From NCBI GenBank assembly GCA_016783675.1, contig JADHWE010000021.1, positions 1 to 35,963 on the forward strand: a stretch of 35,963 nucleotides of DNA. The letters are read 5' to 3'. Numbering within the stretch: the first letter of the stretch is position 1; the number at the start of each line of letters is the position of its first letter. The position numbers and the translations under genes were made by a program. The notes under the pieces are model-generated. The model worked only from the letters and a program-made list of their open reading frames with translations. It did not search any database and was not told the origin of the DNA. This document shows, piece by piece, positions 9,580 to 28,414 of the stretch. The stretch comes from Kiritimatiellia bacterium (GTDB lineage: Bacteria > Verrucomicrobiota > Kiritimatiellia > UBA8416 > JABMPJ01).

Positions 9580-11169
9580 ATGGGTGCGTTGCAGATACGA
9601 GATACGACTGAGCATGATGTCGAGGCGGTCAAGGCGTTGTTTGTCGACGCGTATGGGCCCGATTACCCTTTTACCGATTTCTATGACACGGGGTGGCTGA
9701 AAAAGGCTGTGTTCGATGACGACACGATGTTCCTGGTGGCGGAATTGGACGGTAAGGTGCTGGGTACGGTCAGTGTCATGTTCGCCACGGGCGGGCTGAG
9801 TGACCTGATCGGGGAGTTCGGGCGACTGGTGGTTCATCACGAGGCACGCGGGCACCACGCGGGCACCGAACTGCTTCAGACGGCGCTGGATCGGGTGTCG
9901 GATTCGGTGCGCTTCGCCTTCGCGGAGGCGCGCACGGCGCACAGCGGGTCGCAGAAGATTCTTGAGGCGAGCGGTTTTCACGCGGTGGGGTTCGAGCCGC
10001 TGAAATACAAACTGATCGAGCGTGAATCGGTCGTACTCTACGCCACGCATCCGGCCGGACTGGAGGACCTGCGTCGCAACAATCCGCGGGTCATCCCGGA
10101 GATCGCGCCACTGGCGATGCATGTGCTCGAACAGGTGGGCATCACGCCTGATGTGATCGTGAGCGACGCGGACGGCTACCCCACACCGAGACCCCGCGGA
10201 ATCACCAACAAGCGCTTCCTGATCGAGGATCTTTCCGAACGGGGATGGAGCCCCCTCCTCCGCATCGAGCGTGGACGGGTCGAGGGGCGCGAAGTATTCG
10301 GTAATCTCAGCCTGTCGCACGGCTTCTTCAAGATCCGCACACAGAAGACGCGCTACCTCGTGGCGCGTGATGGCGCGGCGATTCTGGGTGGACTCGGTTT
10401 CTCGCACGATCCGATCGACCAGAAGGTCCGCATATTCGAACTGATCGGGTTCGACAACGCCGTCAAGGGAGCGCTGCTGGACGAGGTCGATCGCCTCGCC
10501 CGGGAAGAGCTGGACGCGGCCTACATCGAGGCAGATGTCAGTGCCTACGCACCGGAGCTTCAGCGAACGCTGGAGCGGCTCGGTTTCATGGCGACTGCGT
10601 ACTGTCCTTCCATGGTGTTCAGCGAGGTGGAAAGGCTGGATGTCGTCCGCATGGCCAAGCTCTCGGCGCCCTATTTCCGTGAAGAGATTCCACTTACGGA
10701 TGCGGCGGGTAAGACGCGCGACATTGTTGAGTTTTCAATGCTGGATCGTCGCGAGGGACGCGACATATTCCGCGCCGCGGGCGCGACATCTATCTTCAGC
10801 GGCATTGACGAAGGCGACACGTATCACCTCGCGCGGATTGGGCGGATGCGGGACATCGCGGACGGCGAGCGCTTGATCCAGAAGGGCGAAGCCGGTGACC
10901 GGGTCTTTGTGTTGGTGTCGGGCGAGCTGCGCGTGAGCGTTGGGGACAGGGAGGTCGGACGCATCGCCGCCGGGGAGACGGTCGGCGAGATGTCGCTGCT
11001 GGATGAGAACCCGCGTTCGGCCAACGTGATCGCCGCGGGGGACTGCCGCGTACTGGAGATCCTGGGCACGGATCTACAGGAGCTGATGGCACGTCGCCCG
11101 CGGCTAGGCATGGCGCTCATGCGCAACCTGGCCGTCAACCTATCCGCGAAGTTACGTGGCGCCGATTGA
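9580..11169 (+). CDS. GNAT acetyltransferase fused to cyclic-nucleotide-binding domain
   Basis: 529 aa. Residues 1-150 are a GNAT N-acetyltransferase with motif A, EFGRLVVHHEARGHHAG (79-95), the acetyl-CoA pyrophosphate loop. A second, more divergent GNAT-like region lies at about 250-350. Residues about 400-525 form a cNMP-binding (CAP_ED) beta-roll: LIQKGEAGDRVFVLVSGEL, then the phosphate-binding cassette GETVGEMSLLDENPRSANV with the Arg that contacts the cyclic phosphate. Acetyltransferases gated by cAMP are known in mycobacteria (Pat) with the domains in the opposite order. The target is unknown; ligand-gated acetylation in the cytoplasm is inferred. No strong ribosome site is seen at ATG 9580. 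The gene stands alone before the redox operon. Confidence 0.85.
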   Translation: MGALQIRDTTEHDVEAVKALFVDAYGPDYPFTDFYDTGWLKKAVFDDDTMFLVAELDGKVLGTVSVMFATGGLSDLIGEFGRLVVHHEARGHHAGTELLQTALDRVSDSVRFAFAEARTAHSGSQKILEASGFHAVGFEPLKYKLIERESVVLYATHPAGLEDLRRNNPRVIPEIAPLAMHVLEQVGITPDVIVSDADGYPTPRPRGITNKRFLIEDLSERGWSPLLRIERGRVEGREVFGNLSLSHGFFKIRTQKTRYLVARDGAAILGGLGFSHDPIDQKVRIFELIGFDNAVKGALLDEVDRLAREELDAAYIEADVSAYAPELQRTLERLGFMATAYCPSMVFSEVERLDVVRMAKLSAPYFREEIPLTDAAGKTRDIVEFSMLDRREGRDIFRAAGATSIFSGIDEGDTYHLARIGRMRDIADGERLIQKGEAGDRVFVLVSGELRVSVGDREVGRIAAGETVGEMSLLDENPRSANVIAAGDCRVLEILGTDLQELMARRPRLGMALMRNLAVNLSAKLRGAD

Positions 11170-11270: not shown

Positions 11271-12389
11271 ATGACAGGGAAAAGTGGGTATTCACGTCGC
11301 GACTTTTTCAAGGGAGCCAGTGTGCTGGCCGGCGCTGCCGCGCTGGGTGGCGTAGGCACCTCCACCGCCGGTGCCGCCGTCGCCGCCAAGGCTGCGATTC
11401 CCCGGCGCAAGCTGGGCAAGACCGACCTGGAGCTGCCCGCTGTTTCGATTGGAACCGGAGCCGACAACAGCGACCTGAACGTCATCAAGTATGCCATCTC
11501 GCAGGGGATGAACTTCGTTCACACCTCGACCGGATACAAGAAGGGCGTCGCAATCAAGAATGTAGGAGAAGCGATCAAGGGGCAGCGGGACAAGCTAACC
11601 CTTGCTCTGAAGATCACTTGGGCACCCGACGACGACGCGGCATTGGATGCCGCATTCGAGACGCTGGGTGTAGACAACGTCGACATCGCCTTCTTCAACA
11701 TTCACAAGGCTTCACAGGTAAGCGACCCCAAGTTCCGCAAAGGAGCGGAGCGATGGATAAAGATGGGCAAGTTCCGCTACATCGGGTTGACCTCGCACAA
11801 AGAGACCGCCGCATGCCTGAGCGCGGCACTCGACCAGGGCTTCTACAATGCCCTGATGCCGGCCTATAACATCAGCATGGAAGAGGAATTCCTCCCGATC
11901 TTCGAGCGGGCCGAGAAAGAGGGTGTGGGCGTGGTGCTGATGAAGAGCGGGCGGGGGCTGAACGGCGACGCCTACTATGATGCGGTACCGCAGTACCTGG
12001 CTACGACAGGCATCACCACCATCAACAAGGGTTACGGATCATTTCGGGATGTTCAGAAGCAGATCGAGGCCGCCGGGCAGCCGGCGGACGCCGAGATCGG
12101 GAAACGCGTCCGCGAAGCAGCCGCCGTTGCCATGACGGGTCACTGCCAGATGTGCGGGATCTGCGATCAGGTCTGTCCCCGCGGACTGCCGGTCGCCGAC
12201 GTGGTGCGTTGTTCCGACTACTACATGGAGCACGCGCTCTATGTGGGCACGGCTTTCCAGACCTACGAGGAACTGAAAGACCGTCCGCAGACCGCCATCT
12301 GCGGTGACTGCGACCTCTGTGAGCGGGCCTGTCCCAACGGTGTGCCGGTGATGCATCATATCCGTCGGGCCGAGACCACACTCGCGTAG
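11271..12389 (+). CDS. Tat-exported aldo/keto reductase with C-terminal ferredoxin clusters
   Basis: 372 aa from ATG 11271, with AAAGGAG eight bases upstream; the frame stays open further upstream but that part is not protein-like. SRRDFFKGA (8-16) followed by a hydrophobic Ala/Gly stretch is a twin-arginine signal. The barrel (about 45-285) starts RKLGKTDLELPAVSIGTG, typical of aldo/keto reductases. Tyr89, Lys114 and His145 of the catalytic tetrad are present, but the Asp before them is His84 (VHTSTGYKKG). Two ferredoxin-like Cys sets end the protein: C292-C295-C298-C302 and C344-C347-C350-C354. This type of reductase probably exchanges electrons with Fe-S partners outside the cytoplasmic membrane. 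It is the first gene of a four-gene redox operon. Confidence 0.88.
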   Translation: MTGKSGYSRRDFFKGASVLAGAAALGGVGTSTAGAAVAAKAAIPRRKLGKTDLELPAVSIGTGADNSDLNVIKYAISQGMNFVHTSTGYKKGVAIKNVGEAIKGQRDKLTLALKITWAPDDDAALDAAFETLGVDNVDIAFFNIHKASQVSDPKFRKGAERWIKMGKFRYIGLTSHKETAACLSAALDQGFYNALMPAYNISMEEEFLPIFERAEKEGVGVVLMKSGRGLNGDAYYDAVPQYLATTGITTINKGYGSFRDVQKQIEAAGQPADAEIGKRVREAAAVAMTGHCQMCGICDQVCPRGLPVADVVRCSDYYMEHALYVGTAFQTYEELKDRPQTAICGDCDLCERACPNGVPVMHHIRRAETTLA

Positions 12390-12405
12390 ACACCGGGAGC
12401 GCCGC

Positions 12406-13329
12406 ATGGTTCAACGCCGACTGTTCCTGGCCGCCGGCTGGCTACTGCCATTTGTGCTGGCGGCGCTGTTCATACTGAAGGGGCAACACTACGACCCAGC
12501 CTTCTTCACGCCGCCGGCCGTGCAGGGGCAAGACCTGCCTGTGCCGCTGGAGGTCGGCCACTGGCAACTCGAGGGCGGGCAACTCTTCCCTGCCGACCGC
12601 ATGTTCGAGAAGATCAACGGCAAGGCCGACTACTACCTGCAATACGATGCCGTCGAGCTCTGCAGCGGGGAGTGGATTGCAGGCGATCAGCACTGGGACA
12701 TGTATCTCTACCGCTTCAAGGATGCTGACGGCGCGCGCTATGCCTTCAGCGGTGAACGCCCGGGCAACCCAAGTGAGATTGACGGGATCAAGGGCTACCG
12801 GGTTCCGGGCCAAGTCGCCGTTCTGACGGGAACGTCCTACCTGCAGCTCAACGCCCACAGGGTGGACGCCGACACCGCCCCCGCTGAAACGCTGGCCAGG
12901 GAGCTTGTCGCGTACCTCGGAGAGTCCTCCCCTGTGGCGGACAGTAAGCCGGACCAGTCGCCGGCGACACTGGCCGGTGACGCGCTGATCAAAGACTCGG
13001 AGGGGCTACTGCCTGAAGGCGCCTTCGGGTTCTCCGTGCTCAACGAGGTACAGACAGCCCGGGTTTCTCTGTCCGGTGCAGAAGCGATCTGGTTCAAGGC
13101 ACCGGGCGATATCGAGACACTGATGGCCTATGCGGCAGAGCTGAAACTGTACGGCGGCGCGCACCTGTTTGAGCAAGACGGCGCAACCGGCGGCCTCATG
13201 TTCTCCTCATGGGAGCTTGCCGGTGTCGTGGACGGGGTGCTCTGGGGCGTGCATGCGGCTCCATCTCGCGAAGCGCTATTGGCACACTGGAATGCACTCC
13301 GCTCCGCACTGCAGGGGGACCAACCATGA
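12406..13329 (+). CDS. DUF6599-like exported protein
   Basis: 307 aa. One N-terminal hydrophobic segment (about 5-24) acts as signal anchor; the rest is soluble and presumably periplasmic. Residues about 60-80 contain MFEKINGKADYYLQYDAVEL, the hallmark stretch I associate with DUF6599. Two related halves are possible, since the second half also has a short FGFSVLNEVQTARV start. No cofactor motif is seen. GGGAG precedes the start by a few bases, and the gene lies 16 nt after the reductase and overlaps the DUF362 gene by ATGA. The context points to a structural or electron-transfer accessory in the redox operon. The function is unknown in the family. Confidence 0.75.
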   Translation: MVQRRLFLAAGWLLPFVLAALFILKGQHYDPAFFTPPAVQGQDLPVPLEVGHWQLEGGQLFPADRMFEKINGKADYYLQYDAVELCSGEWIAGDQHWDMYLYRFKDADGARYAFSGERPGNPSEIDGIKGYRVPGQVAVLTGTSYLQLNAHRVDADTAPAETLARELVAYLGESSPVADSKPDQSPATLAGDALIKDSEGLLPEGAFGFSVLNEVQTARVSLSGAEAIWFKAPGDIETLMAYAAELKLYGGAHLFEQDGATGGLMFSSWELAGVVDGVLWGVHAAPSREALLAHWNALRSALQGDQP

Positions 13330-14300
13330 GTGCGAACAAGTCCAACAGGCGGGAATTCATCAAGCGCATGAGTGCGGCAGCCGGGGTGGCAGCCGGCTCC
13401 GGTGTGCTGGCAGCAGCGTTCCACAATCGAAACCTGGTGCCAACGGGCGAACAGGCCAAGACGATCCCGTCATTTGCCGTGCCCGGCACTGGAGGCATAG
13501 TGGCCATCGCCGAGGGCACCGATCATGCCCTGGCTGTGCAGGCCGCCCTGCAGGAGCTTGGCGGAATGACGCGTTTCATCAAGGCGGGCGATCGTGTGCT
13601 TATCAAGCCTAACTGCGCGTTCGATCGACCGGCCCACTTCGGCGCCACCAGTTCGCCGACCGTGACCGGCGAGGTGGTTCGCCAGTGCGTAGCGCTCGGC
13701 GCCGAGGTCCGCGTGATCGACAACCCAATCAACGATCCGGAAGGCTGTTTTGTGAAATCCGGGATCATGGAGGCGGTTCAGGCGGCAGGCGCCGAGGTCT
13801 GGCTGCCCTCCCCCGCGCTCTTCGGACGGGTCAAGGTGGGCACACTCCGCATTCCGGAATGGGAAGCGCTCTACCGGCCTCTCACCTGGGCCGACAAGCT
13901 CATCGGTATTCCCACGGTGAAGACGCACAACCTGTGTGGAGCCACCCTGACGATGAAGAACTGGTATGGTCTTCTCGGCGGAGGGCGCAACCGGCTCCAC
14001 CAGGCCATCCATGACGTCATCGCAGACCTGGCCCAGTTCATCCGCCCCACCCTCGTAGTGTTGGACGGCTCGCGGCTGCTCGTGGCGAACGGACCGACCG
14101 GGGGCAGCCCCTCCGATGTGCGTCCCGGGCACGTTGTCGCCGCCGGTACAGACCAGGTCGCCCTCGACAGCTTTGGCGCCGAGTTACTCGGGTTTGCCCC
14201 AACAGACATTGAGTATATAGGAAAAGCCGCGCAACTTGGGCGGGGTCAGATCGAGCGGAGCAAGCTGAACCTGTTCAAGAAAGTGAGGGCCGTCTCGTGA
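13326..14300 (+). CDS. Tat-exported DUF362 protein
   Basis: 324 aa from ATG 13326, overlapping the preceding stop as ATGA; longer starts in frame are unlikely. NRREFIKRMSAAAGV near the N-terminus is a twin-arginine signal. The body matches DUF362: DRVLIKPNCAFD (about 88-99), SSPTVTGEVVRQC, DNPINDPEG, then IGIPTVKTHNLCGATLTMKNWYG. The C-terminal VVAAGTDQVALDSFGAELLG stretch is also typical. DUF362 proteins are often annotated as Fe-S proteins, but no ferredoxin CxxCxxC set is present here; only scattered Cys residues occur. The gene sits between DUF6599 and the membrane polyferredoxin, overlapping the latter by GTGA, so it is probably a component of the same extracytoplasmic redox system. Confidence 0.85.
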   Translation: MSANKSNRREFIKRMSAAAGVAAGSGVLAAAFHNRNLVPTGEQAKTIPSFAVPGTGGIVAIAEGTDHALAVQAALQELGGMTRFIKAGDRVLIKPNCAFDRPAHFGATSSPTVTGEVVRQCVALGAEVRVIDNPINDPEGCFVKSGIMEAVQAAGAEVWLPSPALFGRVKVGTLRIPEWEALYRPLTWADKLIGIPTVKTHNLCGATLTMKNWYGLLGGGRNRLHQAIHDVIADLAQFIRPTLVVLDGSRLLVANGPTGGSPSDVRPGHVVAAGTDQVALDSFGAELLGFAPTDIEYIGKAAQLGRGQIERSKLNLFKKVRAVS

Positions 14301-15721
14301 GAGCCCTGCGCCGCTTTTACCAGGTATTCTTCTTCGGCCTCTTCGTCGTTGCGTTCGTGCTGACGTCGCAGGGCCGACTCAAGGGCTACCCGGTCACCGT
14401 CTTCCTCGACAGCTCCGCGCTCAACGCTGTCGGCACACTACTCTCCGCAAGAAACATCGCGTATACGATGTGGATCGGCCTGCTTATCCTGGCACTGACG
14501 CCCTTCATCGGGCGGTTCTTCTGTGGCTGGATCTGTCCGCTGGGGACGATCTTTCACTTTGCCTCGCGCGCTCTACGCCCGCGCAAGCTTGCGGCACGCA
14601 TCAGGCAGAATCTGCGCAGCCCGGCACAGCTCGCCAAGTACCTCATCCTGGTCGGCCTGCTCACGGCGGCGTCGTTGGGTTTCATGCAGGTGGGTCTGTT
14701 CGACCCGATTGCGCTCCTGACCCGCACCGCGACAGCACTGGCGTCGCCCGGCATGCGTGCGGGTTGGCTGCTGATCGGCATCTTTGCGACGCTCCTTCTG
14801 TTGAATGCGTGGCGACCGCGCTTCTGGTGCCGCTACATCTGTCCTCTCGGCGCACTGCTCGGGGCGACGGCCAAGCTGATGCCGGGCGGGGTCGTGCGCA
14901 ACGAAGAGACCTGCACAAACTGCGGACTTTGCAGCCGCGACTGCATCGGCGCCTGCAGTCCGGACACTTGCACCCGCATGGCGGAGTGTTTTGTATGCTG
15001 GAACTGTGTCGAAGACTGCCCGGAGGGCGCCTTGAGTTGGAAATGGATGCCCAAGAGGCAGCAACTCGATCTCCAAACCGGAATGTCACGACGCGCCTTC
15101 CTTGGTGCAGCCACCGGCGGGGTCGCCACGGCGGCGGCATTGCAGACGCAGGCCGTGGAGGGATACCCCGCCCGCGTACGTCCGCCCGGGGCCCTGGCCG
15201 AACCGGACTTTCTCGACCGCTGCCTCAAGTGCGGAGAATGCATGAAGGTCTGTCCAACCGGCGTACTGCGTCCGGCCATGTCGGAGGCGGGTGTCTCCGG
15301 GCTGTGGACGCCCGTGATGGATATGGAACGAGGGTACTGTGAGTACAACTGCACCTTGTGCGGCCAGGTCTGTCCCTCGGGCGCGATCCAGCGACTCACC
15401 ATCGCGGAGAAGACCGAGCGCCCGGTCAAAACAGGCACGGCGTTTGTTGATCGCTCGCGCTGCCTGCCGTGGTCATTCGATCGCAACTGCCTGGTCTGCG
15501 AAGAAGTCTGCCCGGTCTCACCCAAGGCAATCCACCAGGACACGGTCGAGGTGGAGATCGACGGCAAGAAGACGGAGCTCCACCGTCCGCGCGTCAATCC
15601 GGAGCGCTGCATCGGCTGCGGCCTCTGCCAGCACGAGTGTCCGGTCAACGACCTCGCGGCGATTCGCGTTACCGCGGCGGGCGAATCACGCGCCCCCAGC
15701 GGCAGCTTCTTCCTGCGCTAG
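14297..15721 (+). CDS. NapH-like membrane ferredoxin fused to NapG-like periplasmic polyferredoxin
   Basis: 474 aa from GTG 14297. Residues 1-190 hold four membrane segments and two CxxxCP motifs, CGWICP (76-81) and CRYICP (178-183), as in NapH/MauN/CcoG quinol-linked proteins. Cys-rich ferredoxin motifs follow (about 206-241). At 263-280 an internal MSRRAFLGAATGG looks exactly like a twin-arginine signal start. After it comes a NapG-like stretch with about four more [4Fe-4S] motifs, including CLKCGECMKVCP, CTLCGQVCP, CLVCEEVCP and CIGCGLCQHECP. In most genomes NapH and NapG are separate genes, so this is a fusion. The predicted role is to take electrons from the quinone pool and pass them to exported partners such as the reductase of this operon. 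Confidence 0.88.
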   Translation: MRALRRFYQVFFFGLFVVAFVLTSQGRLKGYPVTVFLDSSALNAVGTLLSARNIAYTMWIGLLILALTPFIGRFFCGWICPLGTIFHFASRALRPRKLAARIRQNLRSPAQLAKYLILVGLLTAASLGFMQVGLFDPIALLTRTATALASPGMRAGWLLIGIFATLLLLNAWRPRFWCRYICPLGALLGATAKLMPGGVVRNEETCTNCGLCSRDCIGACSPDTCTRMAECFVCWNCVEDCPEGALSWKWMPKRQQLDLQTGMSRRAFLGAATGGVATAAALQTQAVEGYPARVRPPGALAEPDFLDRCLKCGECMKVCPTGVLRPAMSEAGVSGLWTPVMDMERGYCEYNCTLCGQVCPSGAIQRLTIAEKTERPVKTGTAFVDRSRCLPWSFDRNCLVCEEVCPVSPKAIHQDTVEVEIDGKKTELHRPRVNPERCIGCGLCQHECPVNDLAAIRVTAAGESRAPSGSFFLR

Positions 15722-16027: not shown

Positions 16028-16480
16028 TCAATCCCATACATACCGTTCGTCGTACGGAATCTCGTATCGGTCGAGGAAGGCCCGCAGCTCATCCTGGAAC
16101 GATTGTGTGCGGTGATGTTCAACCTGGCACTCGATATACGCCTTTACATCCTTCACATGTGTCGGCCCAACTGAGAACATGCCATATCCGCTTTGCCAGT
16201 AGAAACCGCCATAGTCAGGCCCCAGCGTCTTGATGAATTTGGATGATTCCTGTTTCACTTTGCCGATCAGGGCCATCGGCAGCATCTTCTTTCCGATGTC
16301 CGCGAGCATGTGTACGTGGTCATCCGGGCCACCGACGACCACATACGGACAGCCACAATCCCGTGCCAGCGTTGCCAGATAGGCATGGACGCGTGATCGT
16401 ATCGCATCGTCGAGCCAACGCTTTCGTCCTTTGGTCGAGAAGACGGCGTGAATGTAGATCTGACAGAATGATTGGGGCAT
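16028..16480 (-). CDS. REP-associated tyrosine (Y1, HUH) transposase
   Basis: 150 aa from the second ATG (16480), which has GGAGG eight bases upstream and gives the typical MPQSF start; the first ATG (16486) is too close to that site. HAVFSTKGR near the N-terminus, DDHVHML with the metal-binding HUH pair (H55, H57) and the catalytic Tyr115 in KAYIECQVEHH define the Y1 transposase fold. SSKFIKTL, FYWQSGYGMFSVG and the closing DERYVW are signatures of the REP-associated subgroup. It nicks single-stranded REP DNA. All catalytic residues are intact and the frame is open, so it is probably active. Confidence 0.93.
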   Translation of the reverse strand: MPQSFCQIYIHAVFSTKGRKRWLDDAIRSRVHAYLATLARDCGCPYVVVGGPDDHVHMLADIGKKMLPMALIGKVKQESSKFIKTLGPDYGGFYWQSGYGMFSVGPTHVKDVKAYIECQVEHHRTQSFQDELRAFLDRYEIPYDERYVWD

Positions 16481-16516
16481 AGTCATCGCCTCCGTTCGGA
16501 CCGTTGAGATTGATGC

Positions 16517-21812: not shown

Positions 21813-24800
21813 CTAGACGAACCTGCGGGGCCATCGTTTCTCAATCCATATATACGCAGCCGGGACAACAAACAGCGTGACGACGGTCGATGTGGCGAGA
21901 CCAAACACAACCACGATCGCCAGCGGACGCTGCACTTCTGAACCGGTGCCCGTTGCGATGATGAGGGGCAACAACCCCAGCGCCGTCGTAACCGTGGTCA
22001 TGAGCACCGGCCTGAACTTCGAACGGCAACCGGAGATCACCGCCGCCACTAACTCCGCCCCATCCCTGCGCAGCCGCTCAAACCGAGAGATCAGCACGAC
22101 CGCGTCGGTCAGTGCGATGCCGAACAGTGCGATGAAGCCGATGGAGGACGGAATGCTGACGTTCTCGCCGAAGGCGACCAGCGCCAGGACACCGCCCACG
22201 AGCGCGAGGGGGACATTCACCATGATCAGCAGGGCCAGTCGCAGGGATCCAAAAAGGCCGTACAGCATGCTGAGCACGAGTACCAGCGTAACCGGGATAA
22301 CGATCGCCAAGCGACGGTTGGCCGCCTGCTGTAGCTCAAACTGTCCACCCCACGCAACCCTGTATCCCGGAGGCAACACGCCGGAGGCATCAACGGCGGC
22401 CTGCGCGTCCCGCACAAACGTGCCGACATCGCGTCCGCGCACGTTGCATGTGACGGAGATATAGCGCTGTGTGTTCTCACGGCTGATCTGCCGCAAGCCT
22501 GTCACGGTCTTGATCTCGGCCAGGCTGCTGAGCGGCACATGCGACCCCGATGGCGTCAGGATCAACAGGTTCCCGAGCGCCTCCCGATTCTCCTGGTAGC
22601 GTTTGTCGAGGCGAACCAGGATGCGGGAAGTCATCTCACCCTCGAAGACATCGCCCACCACATCACCGGTCAGGGCCTGGTGGACCACGGCTTGCACCTC
22701 ATGCTTGTTGAGGCCGTATCGCGCCAGGTGCTGTCCGTTCAGGATCACCTGCAGCTGCGTCTGCCCATCGGTCTGTTCGACACGCAGATCAGCCACACCA
22801 TCGATCTCCGCGACGATATGCTCCACATCCACCGCCAGCGCCTTCAACTCGCTCATATCGTCGCCGAACACCTTCATGACGACCTGCGCCCCCGCGCCGG
22901 CAATGAGACCATCGAGTTCGTGTGCAATCGGCTGGGAGAAGCCGATCGAGACACCGAGGAACCCTTCCAGCCGTTCCTCAAGCAGAGCCACGATCTCCTG
23001 CTGATCGCGGGCTCTACTCCACGGCCGACGCGGCTTCAGCGTAATGGTGATGCAACCGTAGTTGGTGTGATGCATGTGCGGTCCGACTTCACCGTAGCCA
23101 ATATCGGCAATCACATTCTTTACCTCGGGCACCTCGGACACGATGGTCGAGATGTCGGAACACACCTTACTGATCTCATCAAGCGAGACGTTCGGATTCA
23201 TGTAGGCGTAGCAGTTAATCGTGCCTTCCTGAAGGGTCGGAACGAACTCCCTTCCCAACCGCGCGAACCCTACCCCTCCGCCAAGGAGGAGCACAAGCAG
23301 CAGCGCACCGAGGGCAAACGGGTGCTTGATCGTCCGGTTGACCATGACCTCGTAGCGGGCCAGCATGCGGCCCAGGATGCGTCCCGGACCATGGCCGGCA
23401 CGTTTGTGATCGGTGCGGTGGAGCATCCGGAAGAAGATCGGCGCCACCAGGAGCGCGTAGAGCAAGGAGCCACCCAGCGTGGCCACAACCGCAAACGCCA
23501 GCGGCTTGAACATCTTGCCCTCGATCTCACCGAGCGTGAAGATCGGCAGAAAGACAATCGCGATGACAGCCACCGCAAAGACAATTGGCCGCCCGACTTC
23601 CTGCGCCGCCTTCAGAATGGCAGTCTCGCTACCCTGCGCTTGCTTGGGATCGCCCGCGGCGGTCTGGAGCTTCTCAACCATGATGATCGTCGCATCAATG
23701 ATCATCCCGAGCGCAATGGCCATGCCACCAAACGAGATGAGATCACCGGGTGTACCGCTGCGCTCCATGAGAAAGAGACCAAACAGCAAGGCAAACGGCA
23801 GCGAACAAACCATGATCAAGGCATTCCTCAGGTTGCCCAGGAAGAGAAATGCCACAATCGAGACAAGCAACAGACCGAACAGCAGCGCGTTGCGCACGGT
23901 GCGAATACTACCCGCCACGAGATCTGCCTGGTCGTAATAGGAGACGATCTTGACGTCGGGCGGCAAGGTCTGGTTGATCTCATCGATACGACTGCGCAGC
24001 GTGCTGATCACCTCGAACGAGTTGGCACGGTGGAGCTTGTATACGCCACCGACCACCACTTCGCGCTCCCCATCCAGGATGGCCACACCGCGCCGGAAGG
24101 CCTGTCCCAAGCGGACCGTGCCCACGTCGCGGACCAACACCGGCTTCCCGTCCACGCTCTTGACAACGGTGTTGGCGACCTCATCCACCGTACTGACGCG
24201 GCCAAGCGTCCGCACAATCAGTTCCTCACTGCCACGCGTAATGAGCCCGGCTCCAACGTTCGCGTTGTTGACCTCGATCGCCTCGCTGACATCGGAAACC
24301 GTGAGGCCATGCGACAGCAACTTCTCAGGAGAGAGCACCACCTCGTACTGTCGGATGAATCCGCCCTGACTGATGACCTTGGCCACACCGGGCACCGTCT
24401 CAATCCCGCGTTTGACGACCCACTCATGCAGCGTCCGCACCTCGGTGATGTCACGGCTCTCGGCTTCCAGGTAGTAGGCCAGGATCTTCCCCATCCCACT
24501 GGCGACGGGGCCCATCTCAAGCCCATGCGGCATACCGACGCCTTCCGGAATTCCCTCCTCGGCGAGCTTGAGTCGCTCCGAAACGAGCTGCCGGGCGCGA
24601 TAGATGTCGACATCGTCCTCGAAGTAGATGTTGACCGTCGACAGCCCCAGTGAGGAGAGCGAGCGAATCTTCTGCACACCGGGAATACTGCGCATTGCCG
24701 TTTCGGTCGGCCGCGTTATCAGCTGCTCGACCTCTTCCGGCGCCATCCCGTCGACCTCGGCGAATACCTGCACGAGATTCGGGCTGACATCCGGAAAGGC

Positions 24801-24911
24801 GTCTATGGAGAGATTCGAGAGCGACCACACCCCCAGTGCACACACGGCCACGGTGGTTATGAAAGCCAGCAGCTTGTGTTTCAGACCAATATGGATAATC
24901 TTTTCAATCAT
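21813..24911 (-). CDS. CzcA/CusA-type heavy-metal RND efflux pump
   Basis: 1032 aa, the full family length. The protein starts IEKIIHIGLKHKLLAFITTVAV and contains SIDAFPDVSPNLVQV, TAMRSIPGVQKIRSLSSLGLS and the C-terminal EVQRPLAIVVVFGLATSTVVTLFVVPAAY. Two sets of six membrane helices frame periplasmic porter domains. The TM4 motif is GGMAIALGMIIDATIIMVE (395-413) with Asp406, but lacks the leading Asp-Phe-Gly of Zn/Co pumps and is nearer to the Cu/Ag (CusA) type. It exports metal by proton antiport through the CzcB and CzcC partners encoded just upstream. AGGGGA precedes the ATG, 14 nt after czcB. Metal choice is inferred from one motif only. Confidence 0.95.
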   Translation of the reverse strand: MIEKIIHIGLKHKLLAFITTVAVCALGVWSLSNLSIDAFPDVSPNLVQVFAEVDGMAPEEVEQLITRPTETAMRSIPGVQKIRSLSSLGLSTVNIYFEDDVDIYRARQLVSERLKLAEEGIPEGVGMPHGLEMGPVASGMGKILAYYLEAESRDITEVRTLHEWVVKRGIETVPGVAKVISQGGFIRQYEVVLSPEKLLSHGLTVSDVSEAIEVNNANVGAGLITRGSEELIVRTLGRVSTVDEVANTVVKSVDGKPVLVRDVGTVRLGQAFRRGVAILDGEREVVVGGVYKLHRANSFEVISTLRSRIDEINQTLPPDVKIVSYYDQADLVAGSIRTVRNALLFGLLLVSIVAFLFLGNLRNALIMVCSLPFALLFGLFLMERSGTPGDLISFGGMAIALGMIIDATIIMVEKLQTAAGDPKQAQGSETAILKAAQEVGRPIVFAVAVIAIVFLPIFTLGEIEGKMFKPLAFAVVATLGGSLLYALLVAPIFFRMLHRTDHKRAGHGPGRILGRMLARYEVMVNRTIKHPFALGALLLVLLLGGGVGFARLGREFVPTLQEGTINCYAYMNPNVSLDEISKVCSDISTIVSEVPEVKNVIADIGYGEVGPHMHHTNYGCITITLKPRRPWSRARDQQEIVALLEERLEGFLGVSIGFSQPIAHELDGLIAGAGAQVVMKVFGDDMSELKALAVDVEHIVAEIDGVADLRVEQTDGQTQLQVILNGQHLARYGLNKHEVQAVVHQALTGDVVGDVFEGEMTSRILVRLDKRYQENREALGNLLILTPSGSHVPLSSLAEIKTVTGLRQISRENTQRYISVTCNVRGRDVGTFVRDAQAAVDASGVLPPGYRVAWGGQFELQQAANRRLAIVIPVTLVLVLSMLYGLFGSLRLALLIMVNVPLALVGGVLALVAFGENVSIPSSIGFIALFGIALTDAVVLISRFERLRRDGAELVAAVISGCRSKFRPVLMTTVTTALGLLPLIIATGTGSEVQRPLAIVVVFGLATSTVVTLFVVPAAYIWIEKRWPRRFV

Positions 24912-24925
24912 GGTAATCCCCTGAA

Positions 24926-26485
24926 TCAGTGCGCGTGGCCGTGGCCGCCGGACGAACGCCCCGACGTGGCGAGCTCAGCCTTCAGATGGAAAGCGTTCTC
25001 GGACGCGACGGCCTCACCGGGCTGCAGCCCTTCGAGAATCTCGATCTGCTGTCCGTCCGACGCGCCGGTCACTATGTCGCGCAGCTCGAAATCGGAATCG
25101 CCCCAAACGAACAGGCAGGTATGATCATTGACCAGCTGTACGCTGGCCTGCGGAACAACGACCGCTTCTCCTTCAGTCGGCGCACGAATCCCGGCCTCTA
25201 CAAACGTGCCGGGGCGGAAGCGCTCCTCCGAGTTGTCCAGCACGACACGGGCCAAGGCACGGCGCGTATCCGCATCCACGATGGGAGAGACAAACGCTAT
25301 CTCTGATTCGAACTCACCCCCATTCGGCAGACGGATCGTCACGGCATACCCCTTCTCGACCGAAGGAATGGCATCCTGGCTGATCGCGAGATCAACCCAG
25401 ACGCTGGAGAGGTCCGCTACAGTGAACACCTCGGAGGCCGTGTCAATGGACTCGCCCATGACGATGTGCTTCTCGACCAACGTCCCGTCAAAGGGGGCTC
25501 GTAGCGCGTACCACGCAAAACGCGCATCCTTGCCGAGCGTGTCGCCCAGCTTAGGGAGATCGCCCTCTGCGCAGTTCGGGTCGGGACACTGACAGGGCTC
25601 CGACAGGGCCACCTTGGGAATCAGGGCACGCAGGGAGGTAACGACCTCATCATCGGCGCCCTTCAGACGCAGTCGTTTCTCGGCGGCCACAGCATTGAAA
25701 GCGGCCACCTGGCGCTCCTGGGCCGCCTCGGTATACTCAATCATGGTCTCGAAACGTGCCGTATCCATAGTCGCCTGAAAGGCGGCACGCGCCTGCCGCA
25801 GGGCGGTTTCAGCCGCGAGAAGCTCTTGCGCGCTACTGATCTGCTTGGCATGCAGATCGGCCTCCCGCTCATGCGTGGTCCGAGCGGCCAGGTAGGCCGC
25901 GTGGGCAATCAGTAGCTGTCCGCGGTACTGCCCCATCTCGAGGCCGTCCAACTTGCGAATGGCCTCCTCTGCGGCCCCCTCCTTGAGGAGCCGGATTAAT
26001 CTGGCCACATTGCCATGAATCGCTTTGGCACGAGGCAGCAGGAGCTCACAGCACCCCACTTCGGCTTCCATCGCATAGAAGTCCAGCTTGGCTTCGGCCA
26101 GTCCCTCGCTTTCGACCCAGGCGAGTATCTCGCCGGCTTGCACGTGGTCACCCAGCGACTTCGTGACGGCCCGCACCACGCCGGCCGCACGCGGTACGAC
26201 GTGCGCGAAACGATCAGCGTTGACCTTTATCTCACCGGGCACACGGATCTCGCTATGCACGGTGCCTTCAACTGCTCGTGTGATCTTGATACCGAGTCGG
26301 GCAACCTGCTCCTGTGTCACAGCCACGCGCTGCACATGACTATCTTCGCCCCCCGCCGGACTGTTGTGTGCATGCCCCGCATGTGCGTCGACCTCTGCGA
26401 CCGCCCACGCACGGCTTGCGCCACCGACCGATAGGCACATCACAAGGCTTAGAATGGTTGACTGATAGCTGATAACTCTCTTCAT
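24926..26485 (-). CDS. RND efflux periplasmic adaptor (CzcB/CusB family)
   Basis: 519 aa. A signal peptide (1-28) is followed by an N-terminal His-rich stretch, DAHAGHAHNS, and the protein ends SGGHGHAH, so both ends can bind metal. VPGEIKVNADRFAHVVPRAAGVV and GDHVQAGEILAWVES are the lipoyl half-motifs of membrane-fusion proteins. A long coiled-coil hairpin (about 150-270) follows. An unusual CQCPDPNC insertion (about 298-305) adds three Cys, a likely extra metal site. LRAPFDGTLVEKHIVMGESI is the second lipoyl half. It bridges CzcA and CzcC across the periplasm. The ATG overlaps the CzcC stop as ATGA and has GGAGG upstream. Confidence 0.93.
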   Translation of the reverse strand: MKRVISYQSTILSLVMCLSVGGASRAWAVAEVDAHAGHAHNSPAGGEDSHVQRVAVTQEQVARLGIKITRAVEGTVHSEIRVPGEIKVNADRFAHVVPRAAGVVRAVTKSLGDHVQAGEILAWVESEGLAEAKLDFYAMEAEVGCCELLLPRAKAIHGNVARLIRLLKEGAAEEAIRKLDGLEMGQYRGQLLIAHAAYLAARTTHEREADLHAKQISSAQELLAAETALRQARAAFQATMDTARFETMIEYTEAAQERQVAAFNAVAAEKRLRLKGADDEVVTSLRALIPKVALSEPCQCPDPNCAEGDLPKLGDTLGKDARFAWYALRAPFDGTLVEKHIVMGESIDTASEVFTVADLSSVWVDLAISQDAIPSVEKGYAVTIRLPNGGEFESEIAFVSPIVDADTRRALARVVLDNSEERFRPGTFVEAGIRAPTEGEAVVVPQASVQLVNDHTCLFVWGDSDFELRDIVTGASDGQQIEILEGLQPGEAVASENAFHLKAELATSGRSSGGHGHAH

Positions 26486-27873
26486 TTGCTTTCCTCCACG
26501 TTGATCTCTACAAGCGCTTCAATAGGGGTTCCCGTGACCTGCTGTACCGCGGCAACGGCGATATGATAGGACGATAGGGCATCGACCAGCGCGCCCCGGG
26601 CCTCAAACAGTCCCCGTTGTGCGCCGAGCATATCCAGAAAATCGAACTTACCCTCACGGTACCCCTCGTGCGCCGCGTCAAAGGCCTCCTGCATCGCCGG
26701 CACCACCCTGGTGCGCAGAGCCTCCGCCTTGCGCTGCGCCACGGTCAGGGCCGCATGGGCCTCGGCCAGCTCAGCCGACAGGGCCGTCTCGGCCGCACGC
26801 CGCTTTGCGGCCACTGTGGCCAGGTTGTGCTTCGCGGCGGCGATGTTGCCCTGGTTGCGATCGAAAAGTGGAAGGTCGAAGCCCACTTCAAAAGCCAGGG
26901 CCTCTGTCTCGTCCTCCCTGTACTCGACATAGCGAGCGGTCGCTTTGAGGTCCGGCACGCGTTTCGCTTTCTGTGATGCGAGGGACGCCCGGGCGAGTTG
27001 ACCCTCGGACTCCCAACGCGCCATGTCAGGATTCCGCGCCAGCAGTGGACGCAGAGCGGCCAGGTCGGGCACGCGGCCCAACGTTGTATCGAGATGGCCG
27101 TGCGCCGAATCGAACCGGGCGTTGCCGCCCCACAGGGCCGCCAGGCTCATGCGCGCCATCTCCAACGCATTCTCCGCTTCCAGCAACCCTATGTGAGCCA
27201 TCTCCAGCTCTGCCACCGCCTTGGAGCGCTGCAGGGGAGGCTCCTTGCCCGCCTTGACCCGTTCGCCCACGGCATGTGCCGTCTTCTCCGACAGTTCGAC
27301 CATCGAGACGGCGAGAGCATGGCTCTCTTGTGCTGCAAGGACGCCCACGAAACGCTGCGCCGTGGCACTGAATACCTCGAGACGCTTCTGTTCGTACTCC
27401 CAGCCGGCCAGCTCGCCCTCGGCTTCGGCCACGCGCGAGCGGCGGCGACGTTTGCTGCCCAGCTCGATCCATTGCACGAGCGCCACGGAGGTTTCCACGT
27501 TATCAAAACCCATCCCGTCGCGATCGACCTCTTCGACCTCCAGCATTAGCCTGGGATTCCGCAGCAGACCCGCCTGCAACAGGCGCGCCGCCGCCGCGCG
27601 CCCCTCATGTGAGTAGGCCTCCAGGGCCGGGTTGTGCAGCAGCGCCAGGGCCAGAGCCTGCTCCAGTTTGATTACGCCTTCCAAGGCGGTCGGTGTCGCA
27701 CGGATCTCCTCGTGCGCCCCATCCCCCGCCGCCTTGAGCTGTGCCCCCAGCGGTCGCGGCGCAGGTCGCCCGGCATGGCGCGGCGCGGTAGCGCATCCGG
27801 CGCCCAGCGCCAGCACGCCAAGCGGCACCAACAGGTTACGGGTCATTTTGCCTCTATTCATCATCGTCTTCAT
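26482..27873 (-). CDS. TolC-like outer-membrane factor (CzcC/CusC family)
   Basis: 463 aa from ATG 27873, which has AGAGGA five bases upstream; the frame is open to 28038 but that extension is not signal-like. A lipoprotein signal ends LALGAGC. The body is two TolC repeats: KLEQALALALLHNPALEAYSHEG and NPRLMLEVEEVD in the first, GFDLPLFDRNQGNIAAAKHNLA in the second, with long coiled-coil helices between. It forms the outer-membrane channel for the CzcA-CzcB pump. It is the first large gene of the operon and overlaps czcB by 4 nt. Confidence 0.92.
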   Translation of the reverse strand: MKTMMNRGKMTRNLLVPLGVLALGAGCATAPRHAGRPAPRPLGAQLKAAGDGAHEEIRATPTALEGVIKLEQALALALLHNPALEAYSHEGRAAAARLLQAGLLRNPRLMLEVEEVDRDGMGFDNVETSVALVQWIELGSKRRRRSRVAEAEGELAGWEYEQKRLEVFSATAQRFVGVLAAQESHALAVSMVELSEKTAHAVGERVKAGKEPPLQRSKAVAELEMAHIGLLEAENALEMARMSLAALWGGNARFDSAHGHLDTTLGRVPDLAALRPLLARNPDMARWESEGQLARASLASQKAKRVPDLKATARYVEYREDETEALAFEVGFDLPLFDRNQGNIAAAKHNLATVAAKRRAAETALSAELAEAHAALTVAQRKAEALRTRVVPAMQEAFDAAHEGYREGKFDFLDMLGAQRGLFEARGALVDALSSYHIAVAAVQQVTGTPIEALVEINVEESK

Positions 27874-27970
27874 CTCATTCCTCTTACACGACATTATCTG
27901 TCCATCATCTCGGCTCGCTCGCAGGCACAGCGAGACCACGCCTGCAAAACAAGGAAAAGGGAAGGAGGAA

Positions 27971-28414
27971 TCAGATGCGCAGCACGACGGTTCGGCAGAC
28001 GTCGAGTGATGGCGAGGTCCGGGGCGAACCCCAACCATGTAGTCTGGACCGGTCGGCCCATGAAGCGATATCGCCCGAACACAGCTGCGGCGCGGGTAAA
28101 AGGGCTAACGGCGACCGCTGTTCGCGCAGGGTCTTGGACACCTTGACGAGCAAGGGCGCATGTTCCGTACCGAGGTCAACGTCCACGCAAGCGTGACCGC
28201 TGCAATCTGAAGCGGTCAACTCCAGGTCGGCGCAGGCGTGGTCGTCATGTTCCTCAGCGTGCGCAGGCGCGCAGTGCCCGGCGTGCTCCACTTCCAGCGC
28301 GACATGTCCATCCGCGCCGATGCAGAGGACCATGCCGCCCACGCCGGAAACAAGCACCACCATGCTCATCCAGCAGGCCAAGGCAAACCGCATGACTTTG
28401 TGAAGTATTCTCAC
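27971..28414 (-). CDS. Small Cys/His-rich exported protein upstream of czc operon
   Basis: About 147 aa from GTG 28414, giving MRILHKVMRFALACWMSMVVLVS as a clear signal sequence; an ATG at 28393 is the alternative and neither has a strong ribosome site. The mature region starts near LCIGADGHVALEVEHAGHCAPAHAEEHDDHACAD and continues with SDCSGHACVD, a dense set of His, Cys and acidic residues suited to metal binding. The C-terminal half is less ordered and ends VCRTVVLRI. The gene precedes czcC by 97 nt on the same strand. It is probably a periplasmic metal sensor or chaperone of the efflux system, but no named family is certain. Confidence 0.65.
   Translation of the reverse strand: MRILHKVMRFALACWMSMVVLVSGVGGMVLCIGADGHVALEVEHAGHCAPAHAEEHDDHACADLELTASDCSGHACVDVDLGTEHAPLLVKVSKTLREQRSPLALLPAPQLCSGDIASWADRSRLHGWGSPRTSPSLDVCRTVVLRI

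Follow-up and report, generated by a model that had tools for sequence, protein, structure and literature searches.

Which protein of a compact four-gene operon carries its active centre, and what chemistry might that centre perform? The operon lies in a stretch of 35,963 nucleotides, here called the window, from a Kiritimatiellia-like metagenome-assembled genome (MAG; 2.6 Mb, 113 contigs, 71.6% complete). It encodes an aldo/keto reductase-fold protein (AKR), a DUF6599 protein, a DUF362 protein and a NapH-NapG fusion (NapHG). An initial annotation had named the first three families and a membrane-periplasm polyferredoxin fusion, and scans with Pfam and NCBIfam models agree with these names. 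It had also described the genes as tightly coupled, and the coordinates of the open reading frames bear this out. All four are on the forward strand, with 16 bp between the AKR and DUF6599 genes, an ATGA overlap between DUF6599 and DUF362 (13326-13329) and a GTGA overlap between DUF362 and NapHG (14297-14300). No promoter-like site was found in the operon region, and terminator-like sites there are not in excess of those in shuffled sequence, so it is plausible that the four genes form one transcript, as predicted. The genes that surround the operon in the window include one for a fusion of a GNAT acetyltransferase and a cyclic-nucleotide-binding domain upstream, an IS200-like transposase gene directly downstream, and genes for an efflux system.

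Table 1. Features of the window, LarA-type sequence of its genome, and operons of the same phylum linked to larB, larC or larE. Positions are those of the window unless a genome is named.
Feature	Position	Strand	Model matches, basis or gene order
AKR, P0001, 372 aa	11271..12389	+	PF00248, Fer4_17, PF10518
His84 at the AKR catalytic-Asp position in P0001	11520..11522	+	alignment with 26 AKR partners
DUF6599 protein, P0002, 307 aa	12406..13329	+	PF20244
DUF362 protein, P0003, 324 aa	13326..14300	+	PF04015, TIGR01409
H201-x9-K211-x13-H225 motif of P0003	13926..14000	+	invariant, 77/77 DUF362 sequences
NapHG, P0004, 474 aa	14297..15721	+	TIGR02163, PRK09476
GNAT acetyltransferase-cyclic-nucleotide-binding domain fusion	9580-11169	+	
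IS200-like Y1 transposase	16028-16486	-	
AcrB-type RND pump and outer membrane efflux protein	21813-28038	-	
LarA N-terminal fragment at contig edge	G000:C51:3-323		
Operon in G111			DUF362-NapHG-LarB-LarC-LarE
Operon in G226			NapHG-LarB-LarC-LarE
Operon in G260	G260:C33 (L147:6745-12138)		LarE-LarB-LarC-AKR-NapHG
Operon in G146			NapHG-LarC-LarE-AKR-AKR-AKR
Operon in G314			LarC-LarE-LarB, then DUF362-NapHG

Conservation of the neighbourhood identifies the core of this gene set. A search of named bacterial genomes, for which aligned sequences of the fusion protein served as the query, gave the best 80 NapHG loci, and the neighbourhoods of these were read. A DUF362 gene lies within 2 kb of NapHG on the same strand at 71 of these 80 loci, a DUF6599 gene at 44 and an AKR gene at 16; all four families occur within 6 kb on one strand at 16 of the 80. 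Among these loci are some from Kiritimatiellota, Planctomycetota, Opitutaceae, Acidobacteriota, Myxococcota, Deltaproteobacteria and Calditrichota. Since this neighbourhood is found again in genomes of many phyla, the grouping is not due to chance. The closest relative with the gene set among named genomes is another Kiritimatiellia MAG (L041), whose NapHG is 90% identical. The AKR gene does not keep one position: the set begins with it in the window and in near relatives of the window, and ends with it in G005, G052 and many others. Thus, the four-family conservation that the initial annotation had offered as a check holds in that the set recurs widely, but the AKR takes part in it at a minority of loci. 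Given the contrast between 71 and 16 loci, NapHG and DUF362 form the core of the module and the AKR is accessory. At a number of acidobacterial NapHG/DUF362 loci (L062, L080, L083, L087, L088, L097 and L108), AmmeMemoRadiSam genes (radical SAM, MEMO-AMMECR1 fusion) are found nearby, and several of these loci also have a gene for a spermidine-synthase-like membrane protein.

One half of this core provides a putative link to quinones. The N-terminal half of NapHG is NapH/MauN-like (TIGR02163 NapH, 4.1e-26 over residues 2-248) and its C-terminal half is NapG/MauM-like (PRK09476 NapG, 5.9e-28 over residues 267-460). Judged by sequence, the former is a membrane quinol/quinone module with CxxxCP motifs and the latter a polyferredoxin; an RR motif lies between them, and the protein has six 4-Cys motifs in total. 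The two halves match both models of the NapGH/MauNM quinol dehydrogenase modules over their length, whereas the fusion of both in one protein, scores below the equivalog cut-offs and an operon devoid of nitrate reductase genes set this system apart. No match to NapA or NapB, the catalytic subunits that define a Nap system, was obtained for the four operon proteins in Pfam and NCBIfam scans. Together with the Tat signals described below, the NapH and NapG halves support the predicted extracytoplasmic, quinone-type electron path that the initial annotation had put forward.

The same annotation had led this path to the exported AKR as the reductase, and this part is not supported. The window's AKR matches Aldo_ket_red (PF00248, 1.2e-8) and Fer4_17, bears an RR-type signal (TAT_signal PF10518, 22.6 bits against a cut-off of 22.7) and has two C-terminal 4-Cys [4Fe-4S] motifs (residues 292-302 and 344-354). 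It thus shares its barrel and 4-Cys motifs with aldo/keto reductases that have a ferredoxin-like C-terminus, but differs from them in its Tat signal and in its catalytic residues. The canonical NAD(P)H-dependent tetrad Asp-Tyr-Lys-His is not present in this protein and its close relatives: Tyr89, Lys114 and His145 are kept, and His84 replaces the Asp. Among 27 aligned AKRs (that of the window and 26 partners from NapHG loci), the catalytic position holds Asp in 20 and His in seven, including the window clade, and three of those seven (L053 at 4428, L065 and L077) also lack the Tyr and Lys. The second 4-Cys motif is absent from many AKR partners. Because some of these proteins lack the Asp and a few also the Tyr and Lys, a canonical NADPH-dependent reductase is not the common denominator of the loci. 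On these losses and on its scarcity near NapHG, we demoted the AKR as the candidate active centre of the operon. The DUF6599 protein (PF20244, 47.2 bits, cut-off 27) has an N-terminal hydrophobic anchor and is the sole match to its family in the window genome.

The other core protein, DUF362, is probably where the active centre resides. It matches PF04015 with 3.7e-41 and 141.8 bits (cut-off 24) and has a Tat signal (TIGR01409, 16.9 bits); the RR motif is present in 74 of 77 aligned DUF362 sequences. An AF2 model built from this 77-sequence alignment (pLDDT 94.5, pTM 0.89) replaced one built from 4 sequences, which had a pLDDT of 67 and gave meaningless Foldseek matches. When the new model was compared with the PDB by Foldseek, the top 15 matches were all members of the LarA family (E 1e-6 to 2e-4, probability 1.00), including the holo forms 5huq, 6c1w and 8ezf, loaded with the nickel-pincer nucleotide (NPN), and the single-catalytic-His structures 9q3j and 9q3k. 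The match that follows these is weaker and to an unrelated protein. The TM-scores are moderate, at 0.40-0.49.

A conserved motif points the same way. His201, Lys211 and His225 are invariant in the 77 aligned DUF362 sequences, and all 12 LarA sequences compared contain H-x9-K-x15-H, in which the H-x9-K spacing is the same. In LarA, His174 is catalytic, Lys184 tethers NPN and His200 binds Ni (PMC12611868), and the three DUF362 residues were paired with these in turn by motif spacing rather than by coordinates. For the second catalytic His of LarA (His108), the 77 DUF362 sequences show no invariant His equivalent, so only one LarA catalytic His, at H201, appears to be kept. Pfam groups DUF362 with LarA in clan CL0471 (PMC11770544). 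By contrast, sequence profiles alone fail to show the relationship: the window's DUF362 matches PF04015 and not the LarA model PF09861, an hhalign comparison of DUF362 with LarA (P 0.044) did not rise above unrelated controls, and PDB sequence searches with the protein and with the DUF362 profile returned no LarA chain. The link therefore rests on structure, motif and genomic context. DUF362 also differs from the LarA superfamily in its length (324 aa against ~430 aa), its predicted export by Tat and its electron-transfer partner.

The genomic context ties the module to the NPN biosynthesis genes larB, larC and larE. At seven acidobacterial loci the genes share a strand and the order LarE-LarC-LarB-NapHG-DUF6599-DUF362-DUF362, the number of DUF362 genes ranging from one to three, and representative LarE, LarC and LarB genes of these loci are NCBIfam equivalog matches. 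All three genes of this pathway lie in or beside the operon at L089, L090, L095, L096, L098, L105 and L116, and the set does so in whole or part at L145-L149; at a Glassbacteria locus (L058), LarE is directly downstream. Five further lar-linked operons from four families of the window's phylum were located via the coordinates of whole-genome searches (Table 1). LarC-NapHG pairs within 2.5 kb were observed four times in 68 genomes, against ~0.1 expected.

The distribution of these genes among genomes is consistent with this linkage. Over 289 genomes, the phylogeny-uncorrected odds ratio for association with LarC is 10.4 for DUF362 and 5.9 for LarA. Among LarA-negative genomes, DUF362 is present in 43 of the 55 that have LarC and in 11 of the 77 that do not (12 have LarC only and 66 neither; odds ratio 21.5, likewise uncorrected for phylogeny). 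The 43 genomes with both represent 23 genera and 16 families. The occurrence of LarC in 44 of 54 carriers was set aside as support; LarC is found in ~80% of the class anyway, and we therefore rely on adjacency and on the LarA-negative genomes. Members of genus g75 (e.g. G132, L150 and L151) combine LarC-LarE-LarB with DUF362-NapHG, and no LarA match was found in any listed member, which makes this genus a natural test case.

The window genome itself presents a less complete picture. No larB, larC or larE gene lies in or beside its four-gene operon, and no LarB or LarC match above the cut-off was found in the 71.6% of the genome that is represented, although LarE is present. Genomes of the same genus have LarB and LarE in four of four cases and LarC in all three searched for it. 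LarB adjoins LarC in G002 (at L140), so the loss of a single contig from the assembly would account for the absence of both. The window genome also has LarA-type sequences, namely an N-terminal fragment at a contig edge (Table 1) and a divergent LarA-like protein elsewhere (L143), and NPN in this genus therefore need not serve DUF362 alone.

We consider it reasonably likely that the four genes together specify an exported redox module in which DUF362 is a Tat-exported NPN protein with net redox activity, NapHG couples it to the quinone pool, and the AKR and DUF6599 are accessory. DUF362 would be loaded with NPN in the cytoplasm and then exported in folded form by Tat. It would exchange electrons, in one direction or the other, with the quinone pool via the NapHG chain of [4Fe-4S] clusters, and would carry out net hydride or electron chemistry on a substrate outside the cytoplasm, such as an alpha-hydroxy acid or a sugar-derived alcohol and the corresponding oxo form. 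The AKR-fold Fe-S protein and DUF6599 may assist in docking, electron relay or substrate handling. We infer net redox chemistry rather than racemization because DUF362 keeps one LarA catalytic His and has a dedicated electron partner. For exported DUF362 proteins in general, we suggest more tentatively, at somewhat less than even chances, that they are net redox enzymes in which NPN relays hydride or electrons between a substrate outside the cytoplasm and the quinone pool of the membrane.

Some observations weigh against the NPN-redox reading of DUF362. The sequence-level link to LarA is absent and the TM-scores are moderate; the window MAG is without LarB and LarC matches and has its own LarA-type genes as possible users of NPN; and there are the 11 LarA-negative genomes with DUF362 and no LarC, as well as the G260 operon, which joins lar genes to AKR and NapHG in a genome where neither DUF362 nor LarA was detected. 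This operon and that of G146, both of which pair AKR with NapHG and have no adjacent DUF362, would also suit the scheme of the initial annotation, whereby quinol electrons pass via NapHG to the Tat-exported AKR as terminal reductase, with DUF362 and DUF6599 as helpers. The two [4Fe-4S] motifs of the AKR could accept such electrons, and AKR partners recur in several phyla. However, an AKR is missing near most NapHG-DUF362 pairs, and the catalytic-residue replacements and the many partners without a second Fe-S motif make this scheme unlikely.

The G260 and G146 operons could also indicate that the NPN made by linked larBCE genes is used by the exported AKR or by some other protein, DUF362 binding a different ligand. 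We regard this as very improbable: the G260 genome is only 90% complete, it is DUF362, not the AKR, that combines the LarA fold with the H/K/H motif, and DUF362 lies within larBCE operons in two phyla. That same fold evidence would be compatible with DUF362 as an exported LarA-like racemase or epimerase, with NapHG holding NPN or a neighbouring Fe-S centre in the reduced state (reductive reactivation) and no net redox turnover, and the LarA-family reactions named in PMC12611868 and PMC11770544 are all isomerizations. A six-cluster polyferredoxin would be elaborate for reactivation alone, however, and the missing invariant counterpart of His108 also speaks against a racemase, which we consider quite unlikely.

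No known family fits the whole operon; features that define the LarA, Nap and canonical AKR systems are missing from it. Its parts come from known superfamilies, and their combination is without a known counterpart as far as the open-licence literature shows. In open-licence papers, we found none that names DUF6599, no function given for DUF362 and, in work on NPN in cyanobacteria or Akkermansia, no function for this gene set. The statement in the initial annotation that the set has no described function stands within that literature, and an earlier mention elsewhere is possible. About 15% of surveyed genomes have larBCE but lack larA, and further NPN-using proteins are therefore expected (PMC11796402). 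The widespread exported DUF362 family is a named candidate NPN user for such LarA-less genomes and may answer the question of which proteins use the cofactor, a question made directly testable by operons in which larBCE, DUF362 and NapHG are adjacent. If DUF362 is a net redox enzyme, it would represent non-isomerization NPN chemistry and would explain why many NPN-making genomes are without LarA. The operon would then define a new respiratory or electron-sink module in many uncultured phyla.
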